This document shows, piece by piece, positions 4,540 to 29,714 of a DNA stretch of 34,254 bases. How positions within the stretch are numbered: the first letter of the stretch is position 1; every line of letters starts with the position of its first letter. Below the pieces are notes generated by a model that was not told the origin of the DNA, did no database searches, and saw only the letters and a program-made list of their open reading frames with translations. The DNA lies in NCBI RefSeq assembly GCF_024655565.1, contig NZ_JANKOF010000049.1, forward strand, positions 1-34,254. Reading direction: 5' to 3'. Position numbers and translations under genes: made by a program. The DNA is from Nitratireductor sp. ZSWI3. Its GTDB lineage: Bacteria > Pseudomonadota > Alphaproteobacteria > Rhizobiales > Rhizobiaceae.

Positions 4540-5085
4540 ATGTTTGACATCGGCTGGCCAGAAATGCTGGTGATCGCCATCGTCCTGATCGTCGTGGTCG
4601 GGCCGAAGGACCTGCCGCGCATGCTGCGCAGCTTCGGGCGCACGACCTCGAAGCTGCGCGCCATGGCGGGCGATTTTCGCAAGCAGTTCGACGAAGCGCT
4701 GAAGGAAGCCGAGCTCGACGATGTGAAGAGCCTGGTGGACGACGCACGCAAGCTCGACCCGCGCAACGAGATCAAGAAACACCTCAACCCGATCGAGAAG
4801 GTCGGGCAGGAGATCCGCGCCGGGCTCGACGCGGCGATGAAGCCGGATGCGGCCAAGGGCGGTGAGCCTGCCACGAGCGAGACGCACGCGGCGGCACCCG
4901 TGAAGGGTGGGGCGACGCAGATGCCGGGCGAGACGCCGGCCGAGGCGGCCAAGCCCGCCGCCAAGGCGAAGGCGCCGGCCAAGCGGAAGGCGCCGCCGGC
5001 CAAGAGCAGCTCAGTGAAGACTCCGGCCGCCAAGGGCGGTGCCGCGCGGCCGGCCGGCAAGAAGAGCAGCGGAGCCGCATCGTGA
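4540..5085 (+). CDS. tatB: Twin-arginine translocase subunit TatB
   Basis: TatB partners TatC in the receptor complex that recognises twin-arginine signal peptides. The N-terminus MFDIGWPEMLVIAIVLIVVV is the single membrane helix with the conserved Glu at residue 8, followed by GPKDLPRMLRSFGR and the amphipathic helix. At 181 aa it has a long tail: from about residue 110 on, an Ala/Lys/Pro-rich low-complexity segment (repeated PAAKAKAPA-like units). Such tails are common in alphaproteobacterial TatB. The stop overlaps the GTG start of tatC. Confidence 0.93.
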   Translation: MFDIGWPEMLVIAIVLIVVVGPKDLPRMLRSFGRTTSKLRAMAGDFRKQFDEALKEAELDDVKSLVDDARKLDPRNEIKKHLNPIEKVGQEIRAGLDAAMKPDAAKGGEPATSETHAAAPVKGGATQMPGETPAEAAKPAAKAKAPAKRKAPPAKSSSVKTPAAKGGAARPAGKKSSGAAS

Positions 5086-5912
5086 GCGCCGACGACAAAG
5101 ACGACATCGACCAGTCCTCGGCGCCCCTGATCGATCACCTGATCGAGCTGCGCTCGCGTTTGATGTGGGCGATCGGCGGGTTCTTCGTCGCCTTCCTGGT
5201 CTGCTTCTTCTTCGCCAAGCAGATCTTCAATCTCCTGGTGATCCCCTTCCAGTGGGCGACGCAATGGGCGGGGCTCGACGCGAGCAAGGTCGACCTGATC
5301 TACACCGCGCCGCAGGAGTTCTTCTTCACGCAGATCAAGCTCGCCATGTTCGGCGGCCTGGTGCTGGCCTTCCCGATGATCGCCATGCAGGTCTACAAAT
5401 TCGTCGCGCCGGGGCTCTACCGGAACGAGCGGCGCGCCTTCCTGCCGTTCCTGATCGCCTCGCCGATCCTGTTCCTGATGGGCGCGGCGCTCGTCTACTT
5501 CTTCTTCACGCCGATGGTGATGTGGTTCTTCCTGTCGATGCAGCAGGTGGGGCCGGACAATGCGGTGCAGATCTCGCTGCTGCCGAAGGTCTCCGAGTAT
5601 CTCGGCCTGATCATGACGCTGATCCTGTCCTTCGGCCTCGTCTTCCAGCTGCCGGTGGTGACGACGCTGATGGCGCGGGTGGGGCTGCTCACCTCGCAGG
5701 GGCTCGCCGACAAGCGCAAATATGCGATCGTCGCTGCCTTCATCGCCGCCGCCATCCTCACGCCGCCGGATCCGGTCAGCCAGATCGGTCTTGCGCTTCC
5801 CACCATCCTTCTCTACGAGATTGCCATCTGGGCCGCCCGCATGGTGGAGCGCAAACGCCGCGAGGAAGAGGCTGCGCGCGACGCCGACGAAGCGGACCAG
5901 CCGACCGCCTAG
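5082..5912 (+). CDS. tatC: Twin-arginine translocase subunit TatC
   Basis: TatC (276 aa) is the six-helix core of the Tat receptor. Visible hallmarks are LIDHLIELRSRLMWAI before helix 1 (with the conserved Glu of HLxELR), the periplasmic YTAPQEFFFTQIK segment and KFVAPGLYRNERR, which carries the invariant Phe/Pro-Gly-Leu and Glu. Six hydrophobic stretches can be counted. The GTG start at 5082 overlaps the tatB stop (GTGA), implying translational coupling. The C-terminus is cytosolic, charged and Glu/Arg-rich. Confidence 0.95.
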   Translation: MSADDKDDIDQSSAPLIDHLIELRSRLMWAIGGFFVAFLVCFFFAKQIFNLLVIPFQWATQWAGLDASKVDLIYTAPQEFFFTQIKLAMFGGLVLAFPMIAMQVYKFVAPGLYRNERRAFLPFLIASPILFLMGAALVYFFFTPMVMWFFLSMQQVGPDNAVQISLLPKVSEYLGLIMTLILSFGLVFQLPVVTTLMARVGLLTSQGLADKRKYAIVAAFIAAAILTPPDPVSQIGLALPTILLYEIAIWAARMVERKRREEEAARDADEADQPTA

Positions 5913-5977
5913 GCTGAAGGCAATTCCTGTCGCTGTCGGGCGGTTGTTCGCAATCTCTCCGCGATTGGAAACCTGCC

Positions 5978-7444
5978 ATGCTCGACATCAAATGGATTCG
6001 CGAGAACAGCCAGGCGCTTGACGCGGCGCTGGAAAAGCGCGGCGCGGATCCTGAAAGCCAAAAGCTCCTGGCGCTCGACGAGGCGCGCCGCCAGCATCTC
6101 ACCGGGCTGCAGGAGGCGCAGGAGCGCCGCAACGCCGCCTCCAGGGAGATCGGCAAGGCGATGGCCTCCGGCGACAAGGATCTGGCCGAGAAGCTGAAAG
6201 CCGAGGTGGCGGCGCTGAAGGGCTTCGTTCAGGACGGCGAGGCCGAGGAGCGGCGGCTCGACGCTGAATTGCGCGACGCGCTGGCGCGCCTTCCCAACAT
6301 CCCGCTCGACGACGTGCCCGTCGGCGCCGACGAGAACGACAATGTCGAATTGCGCAAGGTCGGGCGGCCGAGCCGCGCCAACTGGTCGAAGGAGCATTTC
6401 GAGATCGGCGAAGCGCTCGGGATGATGGATTTCGAGCGCGCCGCAAAGCTCTCCGGCGCCCGCTTCACGGTGCTTTCGGGCGGGCTCGCCCGGCTGGAGC
6501 GCGCGCTCGGCCAGTTCATGCTCGACCTGCACACCACCGAGCACGGCTACACGGAAGTGCAGCCGCCGCTGCTGGTGCGCGACGATGCCATGTTCGGCAC
6601 CGGGCAGTTGCCGAAGTTTGAGGAGGATTTGTTCCAGACACTTCGTCCTGCTTCTGTTGGCGAACGATTCGCAAGTCACTTCGTTAAGCTTGGTGGAATG
6701 GAGCTTGCACGAGGAATAACGCAGAAGGTTGAGAGTGGCACATCTATTGTTGAGATCAACAAATGGTTGGCTACTTCCTCCTTTGTAGCCGATTTGGTTC
6801 AGCAGGCTGGAGAGCAAGCTGCTTTAGATCCATTTGAGCGGCATTGGCTGATCCCAACCGCCGAGGTCTCGCTCACCAATCTCGTGCGCGAGGAAATACT
6901 CGATGGCGAGAAGCTGCCGCTGCGCTTCACCGCGCTCACGCCGTGCTTCCGCTCGGAGGCGGGATCGGCCGGGCGCGACACGCGCGGCATGCTGCGCCAG
7001 CATCAGTTCTACAAGGTGGAGCTCGTGTCGATTACCGATGCCGAGACCTCCATCGCCGAACACGAGCGCATGACCGAGTGCGCCGAGACGGTTCTGAAGA
7101 AGCTCGACCTGCCGTTCCGCACCGTGGTGCTGTGCACCGGCGACATGGGGTTTGGCGCGCGCAAGACCTACGACATCGAGGTCTGGCTGCCGGGGCAGAA
7201 CGCCTATCGGGAGATCTCGTCCTGCTCGGTCTGCGGCGATTTCCAGGGCCGGCGCATGAATGCGCGCTACCGGGTCGCCGGCGAGAAGCAGCCGCGTTTC
7301 GTACACACGCTGAACGGCTCCGGCACGGCCGTCGGCCGGGCACTGATCGCGGTCATGGAGAATTATCAGAACGAGGACGGCAGCATCACCGTGCCGGATG
7401 TGCTGCGTCCTTATATGGGAGGCGCGGAGAAGATCGGCGGATAG
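5978..7444 (+). CDS. serS: Seryl-tRNA synthetase with an extra catalytic-domain insertion
   Basis: SerS charges tRNA-Ser and tRNA-Sec with serine. The N-terminal part (about residues 1-105) is the long antiparallel coiled-coil arm. The class II core follows with [13 protein letters not shown], the TAE serine loop in [15 protein letters not shown], motif 2 [20 protein letters not shown] and motif 3 [19 protein letters not shown]. The product is 488 aa, whereas bacterial homologues are usually about 425-430. The excess lies between LFQT (residue 221) and HWLIPTAEV (residue 289), where a typical homologue has only a short turn. The insert is in frame, lacks stops and has low GC with atypical codons (see separate entry). 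Everything else looks intact, so the enzyme is probably functional. E. coli SerS also has a longer loop at this point, so the site may tolerate insertion. Confidence 0.95.
6641..6841 (+). other. Low-GC in-frame insertion within serS
   Basis: This segment encodes about 67 residues (222-288 of SerS) with no counterpart in ordinary SerS proteins. My count gives 97 G+C in the 200 bases 6641-6840 (48.5%), against visibly GC-rich flanks. Codons such as GGA, ACA, TTT, GTT, TCT and TTA are frequent here and rare nearby. The peptide looks mostly helical (for example [33 protein letters not shown]) and matches no domain I can name. There is a 5-bp hairpin (GCGAA/TTCGC, 6660-6672) and an 8-nt repeat CACTTCGT at 6639-6646 and 6678-6685, but no convincing terminal inverted repeats or target duplication. 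Low-GC codon choice starts slightly upstream, from about 6617, so the exact boundaries are uncertain. Confidence 0.8.
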
Positions 7445-7520
7445 GGGGGCTCGCCCCCGCTCTCCCGGCGGCGATGCCGGATGGCGATTTGATTGAACGA
7501 GACGGTTGAAGGACAAGACA

Positions 7521-8279
7521 TTGCGCATTCTCTTGACGAACGACGACGGCATCCATGCGGAGGGGCTGGCGGCGCTCGAGCGGATCGCCCGGACGCTTTC
7601 TGACGACGTCTGGGTGGTGGCGCCCGAAACCGACCAGTCCGGTTTCGCCCATTCCCTGTCGCTCTCCGAGCCGTTGCGGATGCGCAAGATCGACGATCGC
7701 CACTTCGCGCTGCGCGGCACGCCGACGGATTGCGTGATCATGGGCGTGCGGCGGGTCATGGACACGCCGCCGGATCTGATCCTGTCGGGCGTCAACAACG
7801 GCACCAACATCGCCGACGACGTGACCTATTCTGGCACGGTGGCCGGCGCCATGGAGGGGACGCTGCTCGGCATCCGCTCGATCGCCTTGAGCCAGGCCTA
7901 CGACGTGTCCGACGAGGGCCGCTACGTTCCCTATGCGACGGCCGAAGCGCTCGCTCCGCCCTTATTGAAGAGGCTGCTCGAGACCGCGCTGCCGGAAGGC
8001 GTGTTCCTCAACATCAACTTTCCCAACTGCGCGCCGGAAGAGGCCAAGGGGACGCGCGTGACCGTGCAGGGCAAGCTGGTCCATGGCCTGTGGGTGGAAG
8101 AGCGCCACGACGGGCGCAATTTTCCTTATTACTGGCTGCGTTTCGGGCGCAAGCAGCCCGACATTCGCGCCGGCAGCGACCAGGCCGCCATCCGCGACGG
8201 CTATGTCTCGGTGACGCCGCTGCATCTCGACCTCACCGCGCACGAGGTGCGCGACCGGCTGACCAAGGCGCTCGCATGA
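7521..8279 (+). CDS. surE: 5'/3'-nucleotidase SurE
   Basis: SurE is a metal-dependent nucleoside monophosphate phosphatase active in stationary-phase survival. The N-terminus [16 protein letters not shown] carries the Asp-Asp metal ligands. [24 protein letters not shown] and the late [12 protein letters not shown] segment are also typical. I start at TTG 7521 because GAAGGA lies 7 nt upstream and the product (252 aa) then begins exactly as family members do. A TTG at 7506 would add five residues but has no ribosome binding site. The stop overlaps the ATG of pcm (ATGA), the classic surE-pcm pair. Confidence 0.95.
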
Positions 8280-26548: not shown

Positions 26549-27664
26549 TTATTTGCGGCGGCGGCAGCGCCAGTTCCAGTCGCGCTCGGGACCGACGTCG
26601 ACGTGGACGGAATTGGTGTGGCAATAAGTGCCCACGCCACCGCGCCCGGCCATCGACCGTGCGTATCGCGCCAGTTCCCATTTGCTGATGCCGGGAATCT
26701 GGATGTCGGCGGCCGCGCAATACATGTGCAGGGAGTTGCGGGCGCCGCGCACCCGCTGATTGTAGCTCGGGCTGCGATAGCCGGAGGTGACGATGATCTG
26801 CTTGCCGTAGTGACGCTCGATCTTTTTCAGCACGCTGACGAGCGCCGGCTTGAGGCATGCCGTGTCGACGCTCTCGCGCTGCTTCAGCAGACCGTTGGGC
26901 GCGAGCCGCGCAAGCCCGGCGGCGGAAGCCACCTGATAGCCTTCGGGCTCATCCTCGTAGAGGTCCACGTCGGCATCGCCGGTGCCGGACTTGCGCGAGA
27001 ATTCGAACAGGCTCTCGCCCTGGCGCACACCGGGCAACGCGTCGCCGGTGGCAAGGGCGGCCCGAACGGGCTTGGCATCCGCCGTGGCGGCGGCAAGCAC
27101 CACCTTGGGCTTCTCTTCGGTGGCGGCCGGCTTGGTGATCTTCTCGGCCGCGGCGGCAGCGTTCGGCTGGCGGGCGGAGAAGAAGGCGGACAGGAAGTCC
27201 CGCTTCTTCGCGCTGGCGTCTTCGGCGGTCTCCGTCGCGTCAGGAGCGGCATCCGTCGCCGCCGTGGCTGCCTCGGTCGGCTGCTCGGCGGCCGGCTTTT
27301 CCTCGGCACTTGCCGTCGTCGTTGCCTCTTCGTTCGAAGAGGCAGGTTCCGGGGGCTGCGTCTCGGCGGCCGCGGTGCTGGCGGCTTCATCGTTTTCGGG
27401 GTCCCCGGCTGCTGCCTGTTCAGGACGCGTCGTCGGGGCGGGGACGGTCGCTTCGCCGGAGGCTGCCGCGAGCGTGCCGCCGTCCTCCGTCATCTGCAGG
27501 CTCGCCGCATCCATGTCGGTCGGCGCAAGGCCGAGCTGCGCGACCGGATCGGTCGCGGTGGAGCAGGAGGCGAGGAGGAGCGACAGGAACGCCGCGGCTA
27601 TGCCGCCACGACCATAAGACCGTCCTTCCCTCGGGCGACCTGCGCCACGATGCCGGAAAACCAA
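26549..27664 (-). CDS. Lipoprotein with C-terminal M15-type (DUF882/YcbK) peptidase domain
   Basis: The 371-aa product has a basic N-terminus and a lipobox LLLASC (Cys about residue 34), so it should be an exported lipoprotein. Residues ~60-230 are a low-complexity Ala/Glu/Thr/Pro stretch. The C-terminal ~110 residues form a peptidase M15A/DUF882 domain: VTSGYRSPSYNQRVRGARNS, then HMYCAAADI (His and Asp zinc ligands) and NSVHVDVG (final His). Relatives include YcbK/MepK, a murein endopeptidase, so cutting peptidoglycan crosslinks is likely. The start is TTG 27664, with GAGGGG about 8 nt upstream. It lies downstream of phaC on the same strand, 220 nt away, probably with its own promoter. Confidence 0.85.
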   Translation of the reverse strand: MVFRHRGAGRPREGRSYGRGGIAAAFLSLLLASCSTATDPVAQLGLAPTDMDAASLQMTEDGGTLAAASGEATVPAPTTRPEQAAAGDPENDEAASTAAAETQPPEPASSNEEATTTASAEEKPAAEQPTEAATAATDAAPDATETAEDASAKKRDFLSAFFSARQPNAAAAAEKITKPAATEEKPKVVLAAATADAKPVRAALATGDALPGVRQGESLFEFSRKSGTGDADVDLYEDEPEGYQVASAAGLARLAPNGLLKQRESVDTACLKPALVSVLKKIERHYGKQIIVTSGYRSPSYNQRVRGARNSLHMYCAAADIQIPGISKWELARYARSMAGRGGVGTYCHTNSVHVDVGPERDWNWRCRRRK

Positions 27665-27825
27665 CAGTAAACCCCCTCAGTCAGATGTTTTCGAATAAGC
27701 TGCGAATACCGGACTCTGAAAACTCCAAAGTTCCCGCACATCTGCGAATCGATAAAACGATCTATTCCCACGGGATACCAGACTATGCCGGTAGGTAGGG
27801 AATGAGGCAAGAACATGTTTGATAC

Positions 27826-27855
27826 TTGTTATTCTTCATGACTTCGGTTTGTCAA
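27826..27855 (-). promoter_or_regulatory. Possible promoter for the M15 peptidase gene
   Basis: On the minus strand a perfect TTGACA (27855-27850) is followed after 18 bp by TAACAA (27831-27826). It lies in the gap between phaC and the peptidase gene, about 160 nt upstream of the latter's start. The -10 is only fair. Confidence 0.35.
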
Positions 27856-27884
27856 GAAAACCGCCGGCGCCGGCCCCCGTGCCT

Positions 27885-29714
27885 TCAGGAGCGCATGCGC
27901 ACATATTCGCCCGGCGCCTCGCCCAAGGTCTTCCTCCTTCCGCCCGGTTTGCGCGCCTTGACGCGGCGGCCGTCCTGCTTCTCGATCCATGCATGCCAAT
28001 AGGGCCACCAGGAGCCTTCGCCCTCCTTGGCGCCGGCGAGCCAGTTTTCCAGCAGCCCCTCGGGCCGGGTGCCGGTCCAGTACTGGTATTTGTGCATCGC
28101 CGGCGGGTTGATGACACCGGCGATGTGCCCGGAGCCGGCCAGCACGAACTCCACCGGTCCGCCGAAGAAGCGGCTGCCGAGGAACACCGACTTGGCGGGA
28201 GCGATGTGATCCTCCCGGGTCGCCAGGTTGAAGATCGGGATCTTCACGTCCTCGAGGTGGATCGTCCTGTCGCCCAGCACGGCGCGCCCGTGCGACAGGT
28301 TGTTCTCCAGATAGCAGTTGCGCAGATAGTAGGAGTGGTTGGCCGCCCCGAGCCGGGTCGAATCGGAGTTCCAGTAGAGCAGGTCGAAGGGCAGGGGCGC
28401 CTGGCCGCGCAGGTAGTTGTTGACGACATAGGGCCAGATCAGATCGCCGGCGCGCAGCATGTTGAAGGCGGTCGCCATGCGGTTGGCGTCGAGATAGCCC
28501 TTGCCGCGCATCGCCTTGTCGAGGGCCGCGACCTGCTCCTCGTCGACGAACACCTTGAGATCGCCCGCATGGGTGAAGTCGACCTGCGTGGTGAGCAGGG
28601 TGGCCGAGGCGATGCGGGTATCGCCCTCGGCGGCGAACAGGGCGAGGGCGGCCGCCAGGAGGGTGCCGCCGACGCAGTAGCCCATGGCGTTGACCTCCTT
28701 CTCGCCGGTCGCCTTCTCGACCGCGTCGAGGGCGAACCTTATGCCTTCGTCGATGTAGTCGGCCCAGTCGAGCGTGCCGTGGCGTTCGTCGGGGTTCACC
28801 CAGGAGACGACGAAGACCGTGTGGCCCTGTTCGACCGCCCAGCGAACGAACGACCGCTTCGGGTTGAGGTCGAGGATGTAGAACTTGTTGATCCAGGGCG
28901 GCACGACGAGCAGCGGCCGCTTGAGCACCTCCTGCGTTGCCGGCTCGTATTGCAGCACCTCCACCAGCCGGCTGCGGGCGATCACCTTGCCGGGCGTTGT
29001 GGCGATGTTCTCGCCGATCCGGAACTTCGAGGCATCCGACTGGCGCAGCTTCACATCGCCCTTGCCGGCGGCGATGTCCTCGGCGAGCATGCGCATGCCG
29101 CGCACCAGGTTCTCGCCGTCGCTGGCCATGGTTTCCCGGAACAGCTCCGGATTGGTCAGTAGAAAGTTCGACGGCGACAGAGCCTGGCTCACCTGCTCCA
29201 CATAGAAGCGCGCCTTTTGCCGTGTCGCCTCGTCCAGGCTGTCGGCGCCCTCGACCAGGTCGAGCGCCCAGCGCGAGGTGACGACATAGGCCTGCTTCAA
29301 GAAGCTGAAGAAGGCGTTGCGTCCCCATTCGGGATCCTGGAAGCGCCGGTCCGAGCTCGGCGGGGCGGCGTAGTCGACCGCCGTGTCCTCGCTCATGCGG
29401 CGGATGGCGTTCGCCCATATGCCCATGAATTCGGCGAAGAGCCGCGTCTGCGCCTCTAGCGCCCGGGTGGGGTCGCCCAGCCAGTATTCGCTGACGCGCG
29501 AGAAGGTGCGCACCATGTCGGCCAGCGGCGCCGCGGTGACGTCGCTCGCCTCTCCTTGTTCGCGCGCCTGTGTCCAGGCGGCGGCTGCCTTGCCGAGCTC
29601 TTCGAGAGCGCGGGCGAGGTTGCGGGCAAGGCGTTCGGGATCCTTCGCCAGGTACTGGTCGATCGAGGCGCCGGCGTGTCCCTCTTTTCCGTTCAGTTGC
29701 TTTTCCTGAGCCAT
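27885..29714 (-). CDS. phaC: Class I poly(3-hydroxyalkanoate) synthase PhaC
   Basis: PhaC polymerises (R)-3-hydroxyacyl-CoA, mainly hydroxybutyryl-CoA, into storage granules. The 609-aa product has an N-terminal PhaC_N region and the alpha/beta-hydrolase core with the lipase-like box AMGYCVGGTLL (nucleophile Cys347). Asp502 lies in ATREDHIAPAKS and His530 in AGSGHIAGVINPP, giving the complete triad. SFVRWAVEQGHTVFVVSWVNPD is also diagnostic. Length fits class I enzymes, which work without PhaE or PhaR subunits. The start ATG 29714 lacks a clear ribosome binding site. An 8-bp inverted repeat lies 18-46 bp upstream, overlapping the likely promoter. No phaA/phaB are nearby. Confidence 0.96.
   Translation of the reverse strand: MAQEKQLNGKEGHAGASIDQYLAKDPERLARNLARALEELGKAAAAWTQAREQGEASDVTAAPLADMVRTFSRVSEYWLGDPTRALEAQTRLFAEFMGIWANAIRRMSEDTAVDYAAPPSSDRRFQDPEWGRNAFFSFLKQAYVVTSRWALDLVEGADSLDEATRQKARFYVEQVSQALSPSNFLLTNPELFRETMASDGENLVRGMRMLAEDIAAGKGDVKLRQSDASKFRIGENIATTPGKVIARSRLVEVLQYEPATQEVLKRPLLVVPPWINKFYILDLNPKRSFVRWAVEQGHTVFVVSWVNPDERHGTLDWADYIDEGIRFALDAVEKATGEKEVNAMGYCVGGTLLAAALALFAAEGDTRIASATLLTTQVDFTHAGDLKVFVDEEQVAALDKAMRGKGYLDANRMATAFNMLRAGDLIWPYVVNNYLRGQAPLPFDLLYWNSDSTRLGAANHSYYLRNCYLENNLSHGRAVLGDRTIHLEDVKIPIFNLATREDHIAPAKSVFLGSRFFGGPVEFVLAGSGHIAGVINPPAMHKYQYWTGTRPEGLLENWLAGAKEGEGSWWPYWHAWIEKQDGRRVKARKPGGRRKTLGEAPGEYVRMRS

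Follow-up and report, generated by a model that had tools for sequence, protein, structure and literature searches.

The window analysed here, a 34,254-nucleotide stretch of Nitratireductor sp. ZSWI3 (contig NZ_JANKOF010000049.1), carries serS between tatC and surE, the same order as in Sinorhizobium. The locus has the following features:

5082..5912, forward strand: tatC, the upstream neighbour of serS, of constant length in relatives (control)
5978..7444, forward strand: serS, encoding seryl-tRNA synthetase (SerS, SerRS) of 488 aa; an open frame with Pfam Seryl_tRNA_N and tRNA-synt_2b and with PDB alignments
6608..6640, forward strand: 5′ border of the insert (11 residues); third positions are AT-rich from the codon after LPKF, as read from 60 low-GC inserts
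6641..6838, forward strand: variable insert (cassette) of 66 aa, or 66 codons, with GC 0.48, GC3 0.38 and an amphipathic helical pattern
6839..6868, forward strand: 3′ border of the insert (10 residues), leading into the TAE motif, placed by serS comparison and PDB alignments
7506..8279, forward strand: surE, the downstream neighbour of serS, of constant length in relatives (control)

The excess length of this SerS sits at one place, between the 11-residue 5′ border and WLIPTAEV in the 10-residue 3′ border, and the three best PDB alignments are broken there and nowhere else. The TAE motif that follows is the serine-binding motif. With a GC content of 0.480, against a window mean of 0.659, the insert has a composition that is equally low in 0.2% of 198-nt windows, and its GC3 of 0.38 compares with 0.87 across the remaining serS. 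Its amphipathic helical pattern is unlikely to be due to chance (P = 0.005 versus shuffles). These data bear out the first-pass annotation in its core, which was that a foreign-looking, low-GC, protein-coding and probably helical segment with atypical codons had been inserted in frame into the catalytic domain of an essential gene. Pfam and PDB gave no convincing identity for the insert, and no Rfam family matched positions 5900-7500. The lowest-GC stretch of the window is found elsewhere (27605-27917, down to 0.434 over 198 nt). Searching the assembly (212 contigs, completeness 99.99) with the full SerS returned one match and no second serS. An assembly error is very unlikely, since many other genomes, including those of isolates on long contigs, carry analogous inserts.

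The insert had also been likened to a Rickettsia palindromic element, and this part of the earlier interpretation is not supported. A published account (PMC10969869) describes ten families of such elements, of about 150 bp, with 44 of them in Rickettsia conorii and many inside unrelated genes. The serS insert resembles them as an in-frame addition of similar size, about 200 nt, inside a housekeeping gene, as a dispersed selfish element would be. The resemblance ends there: no palindrome spans the insert (the longest inverted pair is 20 nt with 70% complementarity), a search of the same genome found only serS above chance (other matches at E 0.31 and 1.19) rather than similar copies in several unrelated genes, and, as set out below, one fixed site in one gene carries unrelated sequences of variable length. 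We regard an element of this type as extremely improbable.

Across the Alphaproteobacteria, the loop from LPKF to IPTAEV proved to be a hypervariable insertion site, a property that lies beyond the view afforded by a single sequence. Without an insert it usually has 13-16 residues; the 118 distinct long loops that we read measure 31-123 residues from LPKF to IPTAEV. Comparison of 109 inserts (families defined at E < 1e-3) placed 36 in 14 families and left 73 singletons, among them that of the window. In the genus of the window, inserts are present in three of ten genomes, all three unrelated, and the other seven genomes have the short form (a string of 16 residues), so that the segment is not common to the clade. 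Several inserts without likeness to that of the window were found at the same place among its first 60 relatives. One of the seven short-form genomes, G004, has a serS whose frame is broken beyond the loop and which reads as two overlapping frames (G004:C2:1964828-1966109), perhaps through a sequencing error.

Three overlapping samples gave insert counts that are lower bounds, as small inserts do not split the SerS match and not all genomes with several matches were opened. For the family (394 genomes, 388 matched), more than one match was obtained in 35 genomes, of which 32 were opened together with G175 and G398 (one partial match each), G010, G283 and G360 being left out. At least 30 genomes had a long loop, among the 33 of 34 with a locus or window (including G386, with a loop of 78 residues); G088 and G398 had a short turn, G175 was not readable to the end and G238 was unread. 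From the order (347 genomes), 51 were re-searched and yielded 50 loci and 46 long loops, or at least 50 when G000, G048, G050 and G059 are added; G050 also encodes, besides its inserted serS, a second, distant SerRS-like frame (G050:C28:4118-5413, open frame 612 aa). From the class (385 genomes), 17 of 20 picked genomes had a long loop, and G000, G476 and G510 are in this sample as well. Carriers include Chelativorans alearense UJN715, Mesorhizobium tianshanense CGMCC 1.2546, Kaistia hirudinis DSM 25966, Methylocystis sp. H62 and Bosea sp. BK604. That at least 30 of the 394 family genomes have an insert implies that it is not generally needed.

Among named loci, 79 of 80 were readable, with a loop of at least 30 residues in 25 and of 13-16 residues in 51. 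In 78 SerS, the loop was at least 30 residues above its median in 24 and the remainder behind it in none, and the neighbours SurE and TatC exceeded their medians by 30 residues in 0 of 57 and 0 of 33, respectively. Outside the class, no split SerS match was seen in 28 genomes of other proteobacterial classes, where ten loops that we read have 13-19 residues. In E. coli, serS was matched over at least 80% of its length in 5374 of 5426 genomes, the match runs from end to end in 19 of 20 listed records, and the loop has 21 residues. The E. coli collection also counts seven plasmid places with serS, and in one 88-kb circular record labelled as a plasmid (L366, NZ_CP134387.1) serS stands beside rarA.

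Such a distribution might reflect no more than a neutral, permissive loop, a turn that tolerates added protein, into which fragments recombine and from which they are later lost, with no conflict involved and harmless folding as the sole requirement. The turn varies elsewhere too, as the 21 residues of E. coli show against 13-16 in most insert-less alphaproteobacteria read, most family genomes sampled have an unsplit SerS match, 73 of 109 inserts are singletons, and no partner was found. Nothing similar is shown, however, by SurE and TatC, and turnover at the loop is fast for neutral change in an essential enzyme.

GC is below 0.58 in 79 of the 109 inserts compared. Taking the 60 low-GC inserts with GC-rich flanks, loop GC3 is 0.52 versus about 0.85 on both sides, the drop starting after LPKF and ending at WL, which gives the inserts an imported appearance with abrupt borders. 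The pooled GC1/2/3 of 0.595/0.401/0.509 follows the pattern of real genes, unlike that of the other frames; that these inserts, pooled, read as in-frame protein speaks against a neutral loop. Hydrophobic periodicity across the 109 inserts is helical (z 8.6 versus shuffles; z -2.3 at the strand angle), and the composition is acidic (D+E 17.1%, K+R 13.1%). In 19 of 19 insert pairs (four of the 36 within family F1, plus all 15 that the remaining 13 families offer) pN was lower than pS, with pN 0.20-0.54 and pS 0.43-0.93, the latter saturated in eight pairs, for which no ratio is given. In every one of the 19 pairs, pN was higher in the insert than in the 150 codons after it, by a bare margin in two (0.20/0.19 and 0.33/0.29). 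The inserts thus read as real protein, and with pN below pS positive selection is not demonstrated. Cysteine is almost absent from them (5 of 6393 residues; the figure for 23 long window frames is 1.09%), but we rejected this as an insert-specific trait because the preceding 200 SerS residues are equally poor (0.06%).

Base composition differs between families. If F1, F12 and F14 are set aside, all members have GC below 0.58 in seven of the remaining 11 families (F2, F4, F6, F8, F9, F11 and F13), and so consistently low a GC would need either a donor lineage with an intermediate GC content or amelioration at a slow pace. The nine members of F1, by contrast, stay within 0.05 of the GC of their host flanks (0.43 in 0.48; 0.67 in 0.67), and this family looks like an old resident domain. 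Insertion domains stable within a lineage are known from aminoacyl-tRNA synthetases, vertebrate SerRS being an example, and the serS insert likewise adds a segment to the SerRS catalytic domain. A lineage-specific SerRS domain for regulation or tRNA recognition, evolving fast in place, would accommodate the widespread, GC-matched F1, the single insert family common to three species of genus g23 (G031, G156 and G224) and pN below pS within families; genus g55 also has one insert type common to two species. For the most part, sister species carry different inserts, and related inserts turn up in distant species. Similar backbones bear inserts that differ in length and have no detectable similarity, or bear none, which does not suit the lineage-specific regulatory loop suggested by the first-pass annotation, and presence and absence within one genus, with unrelated inserts in the three carriers of the window's genus, are unlike divergence in place. 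We consider a domain of this sort to have a rather poor chance of being the explanation.

Exchange of inserts between bacteria is well supported by comparing them with the enzyme that carries them. We built a backbone tree (fasttree; 60 of 177 forks drawn open) from 180 SerS with the loop taken out, 110 of them long and 68 short; on it, presence or absence of an insert changes at least 22 times. Unrelated inserts lie on similar serS flanks, with DNA differences of 4.0% (L079/L083), 4.7% (L131/L135) and 9.0% (L005/L006), and L005, which has an insert, differs by 5.7-7.0% from the insert-less L011-L013. A single clade was rejected by the AU test for all nine families tested of the 14 (F2, F3, F4, F5, F6, F7, F9, F11 and F13; quick tree, simple model, 53 rows), with p-AU from 6e-4 to 5e-55. 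Inheritance suffices for F14, whose members are a sister pair, and for F12, which lies within one unresolved trio. Discordance between backbone and insert phylogenies in nine of nine tested families is what an exchangeable allelic cassette would produce, and the recurrence of families with the same borders on distant backbones is not expected from random capture into a neutral loop. We think the neutral account somewhat unlikely, if still one to be taken seriously.

The flanks say less about how the exchange takes place. Related inserts have nearly equal loop lengths in several cases (61/61, 74/74, 69/68) and unequal lengths in others (67/57, 47/31). Some pairs show an upstream footprint, with a difference of 0.20-0.37 in 60 nt versus 0.05-0.09 further out, and other close pairs show none (L079/L083; L005 versus L011-L013). 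The bin means for the 60 nt upstream were 0.16-0.21 for different inserts (13 pairs), 0.13-0.19 for insert versus none (12) and 0.10-0.12 for insert-less serS (14), in pairs that share genes. An insert-less pair (L055/L059) is raised upstream too (27, 20 and 27%, versus about 7-15% further out), and downstream of the loop the same comparison gave no clear rise in difference. With footprints mixed and L055/L059 raised as well, the flanks point to no one route of exchange; that inserts travel as serS cassettes fits best.

To look for a donor or partner, we sought four inserts (those of the window, of the sister species L005 and L006, and of L094, which belongs to a shared family) outside serS by sequence, and compared 72 with profile libraries. 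For the window's insert, no relative was found by a pattern-based scan of GTDB representative genomes, in phages or, at an acceptable level, elsewhere in 327 genomes of the order, and the best plasmid match had E 3; an E 0.006 match in the 327 genomes lies opposite an unrelated open frame and was taken as chance. A phage-like end protein on an IMG/VR contig (3300032011_000421, L112:4998-5057) shares a string of 11 residues and a few others with the start of the insert, over a span of 19-20 residues. The last 219 residues of this protein found only themselves, phage records gave nothing, and 19 relatives of its front part gave no comparable match to the insert; judged by sequence, we take the match as probably due to chance. 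No relatives of the L005, L006 and L094 inserts were found in plasmids or phages, nor of the L005 and L006 inserts in viral contigs. The profile of family F6 gave one weak match in the 327 genomes (E 0.006), neither F6 member genome being among the matches listed, and a PDB search with the window's insert and F1 gave weak matches only (best E 0.0038, over 27 residues of an actin-like protein). A relative of SerS is encoded on 51 IMG/VR viral contigs (L243-L293), nine of them above 400 kb, but we rejected phage-borne serS as the insert source because the 16 readable viral loops have only 12-25 residues. The searches made in profiles, plasmids, phages and genomes thus yielded no captured fragment of a known gene, as the first-pass annotation had also considered, and no antagonist, partner gene or donor.

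One weak likeness is to the antitoxin VbhA (PF18495), whose N-terminal half is the inhibitory one. It involves the C-terminal half of the F1 inserts L008, L113, L118 and L122, four of the 72 inserts scanned at E up to 0.05, with a best E of 0.00043 at 20.7 bits, below the curated cut-off of 25.9 bits, and covers profile positions 24-47 of 47 only, so that the N-terminal half is outside the match. The window's insert did not match this profile, and the other Pfam, PADLOC and NCBIfam matches at E up to 0.05 were weak and involved one member each (best E 0.0055, 0.0066 and 0.01). Small inhibitors are of comparable size, with a helical pattern and an acidic composition, and one could imagine that the cassettes are immunity or antitoxin modules joined to SerRS by fusion, each neutralising one particular toxin, with the synthetase as a constantly expressed scaffold. 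Size, helicity, acidity and the F1 likeness speak for this idea; a match under its cut-off, confined to half a profile and drawn from 72 inserts, and the single-member nature of the other matches speak against it, and we hold it to be improbable.

Other systems of variable protein segments differ from the serS site in telling ways. Inteins are over about 130 aa and have splicing motifs; this insert has 66 aa and no end Cys, and no intein family is among the Pfam matches. The target of a diversity-generating retroelement has a near-identical template copy in the genome, but we found no second copy, and the inserts vary in length and are mostly without similarity. The exchange of a variable segment within an otherwise unchanging backbone is familiar from hsdS, mosaic PBPs and pilins, which are defence, drug-target or surface proteins. 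The hsdS-type regions resemble serS in this manner of working, a comparison that does not extend to homology, whereas the serS cassette lies within a tRNA synthetase, in its catalytic domain. The open-access literature covered gave no report of such a SerRS insert site. There is no system of this kind that we can name, unless any swapped protein segment is counted.

A fixed site receives many unrelated, protein-like, in-frame cassettes with discordant histories. We propose that alphaproteobacterial SerRS has an exchangeable cassette site in the loop running into its TAE motif, and that an antagonist acting near the active site probably keeps this part of an essential enzyme in turnover; we give this reading a probability of roughly 0.45. 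Bacteria would pass cassettes to one another as serS fragments, with the conserved flanks serving for homologous recombination, and many cassettes would be drawn from an unsampled pool of about 50% GC. Less surely, each may form a small, helical mini-domain next to the active site, the placing of the insert relative to tRNA and substrate being judged from sequence and general knowledge of the enzyme. Diversifying selection may then keep the cassettes in turnover, the most likely driver being a phage or competitor protein that binds SerRS beside the TAE motif, and a new cassette may hide the enzyme from it while leaving aminoacylation unharmed. We count against this conflict reading that the searches found neither antagonist nor donor, that footprints are mixed, that pN is below pS, that F1 looks resident, that inserts are shared in g23 and g55 and that most family genomes appear to do without one. 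A more speculative extension, which we think unlikely, is that SerRS serves as a polymorphic recognition module of a conflict system not yet described, in which the cassette decides recognition by matching effectors. These effectors, equally diverse, would be phage inhibitors or contact-delivered toxins, and serS alleles would circulate in a common gene pool, as immune-type genes do, even though the enzyme is essential.

As markers, aminoacyl-tRNA synthetases are taken to be conserved and slow to evolve. The exchangeable cassette calls for caution where uncut serS is used in phylogenies, and it illustrates that a low-GC patch in a core gene can be real biology rather than an error of assembly. 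Natural SerRS enzymes that tolerate insertions are usable for engineering, and a cassette swap offers a direct genetic handle on sensitivity to phages or competitors. For the bacteria themselves, our findings suggest an evolutionary conflict, so far unrecognised, in which SerRS is involved, and a hypervariable, exchanged segment beside its active site points to strong selection by an unknown agent.
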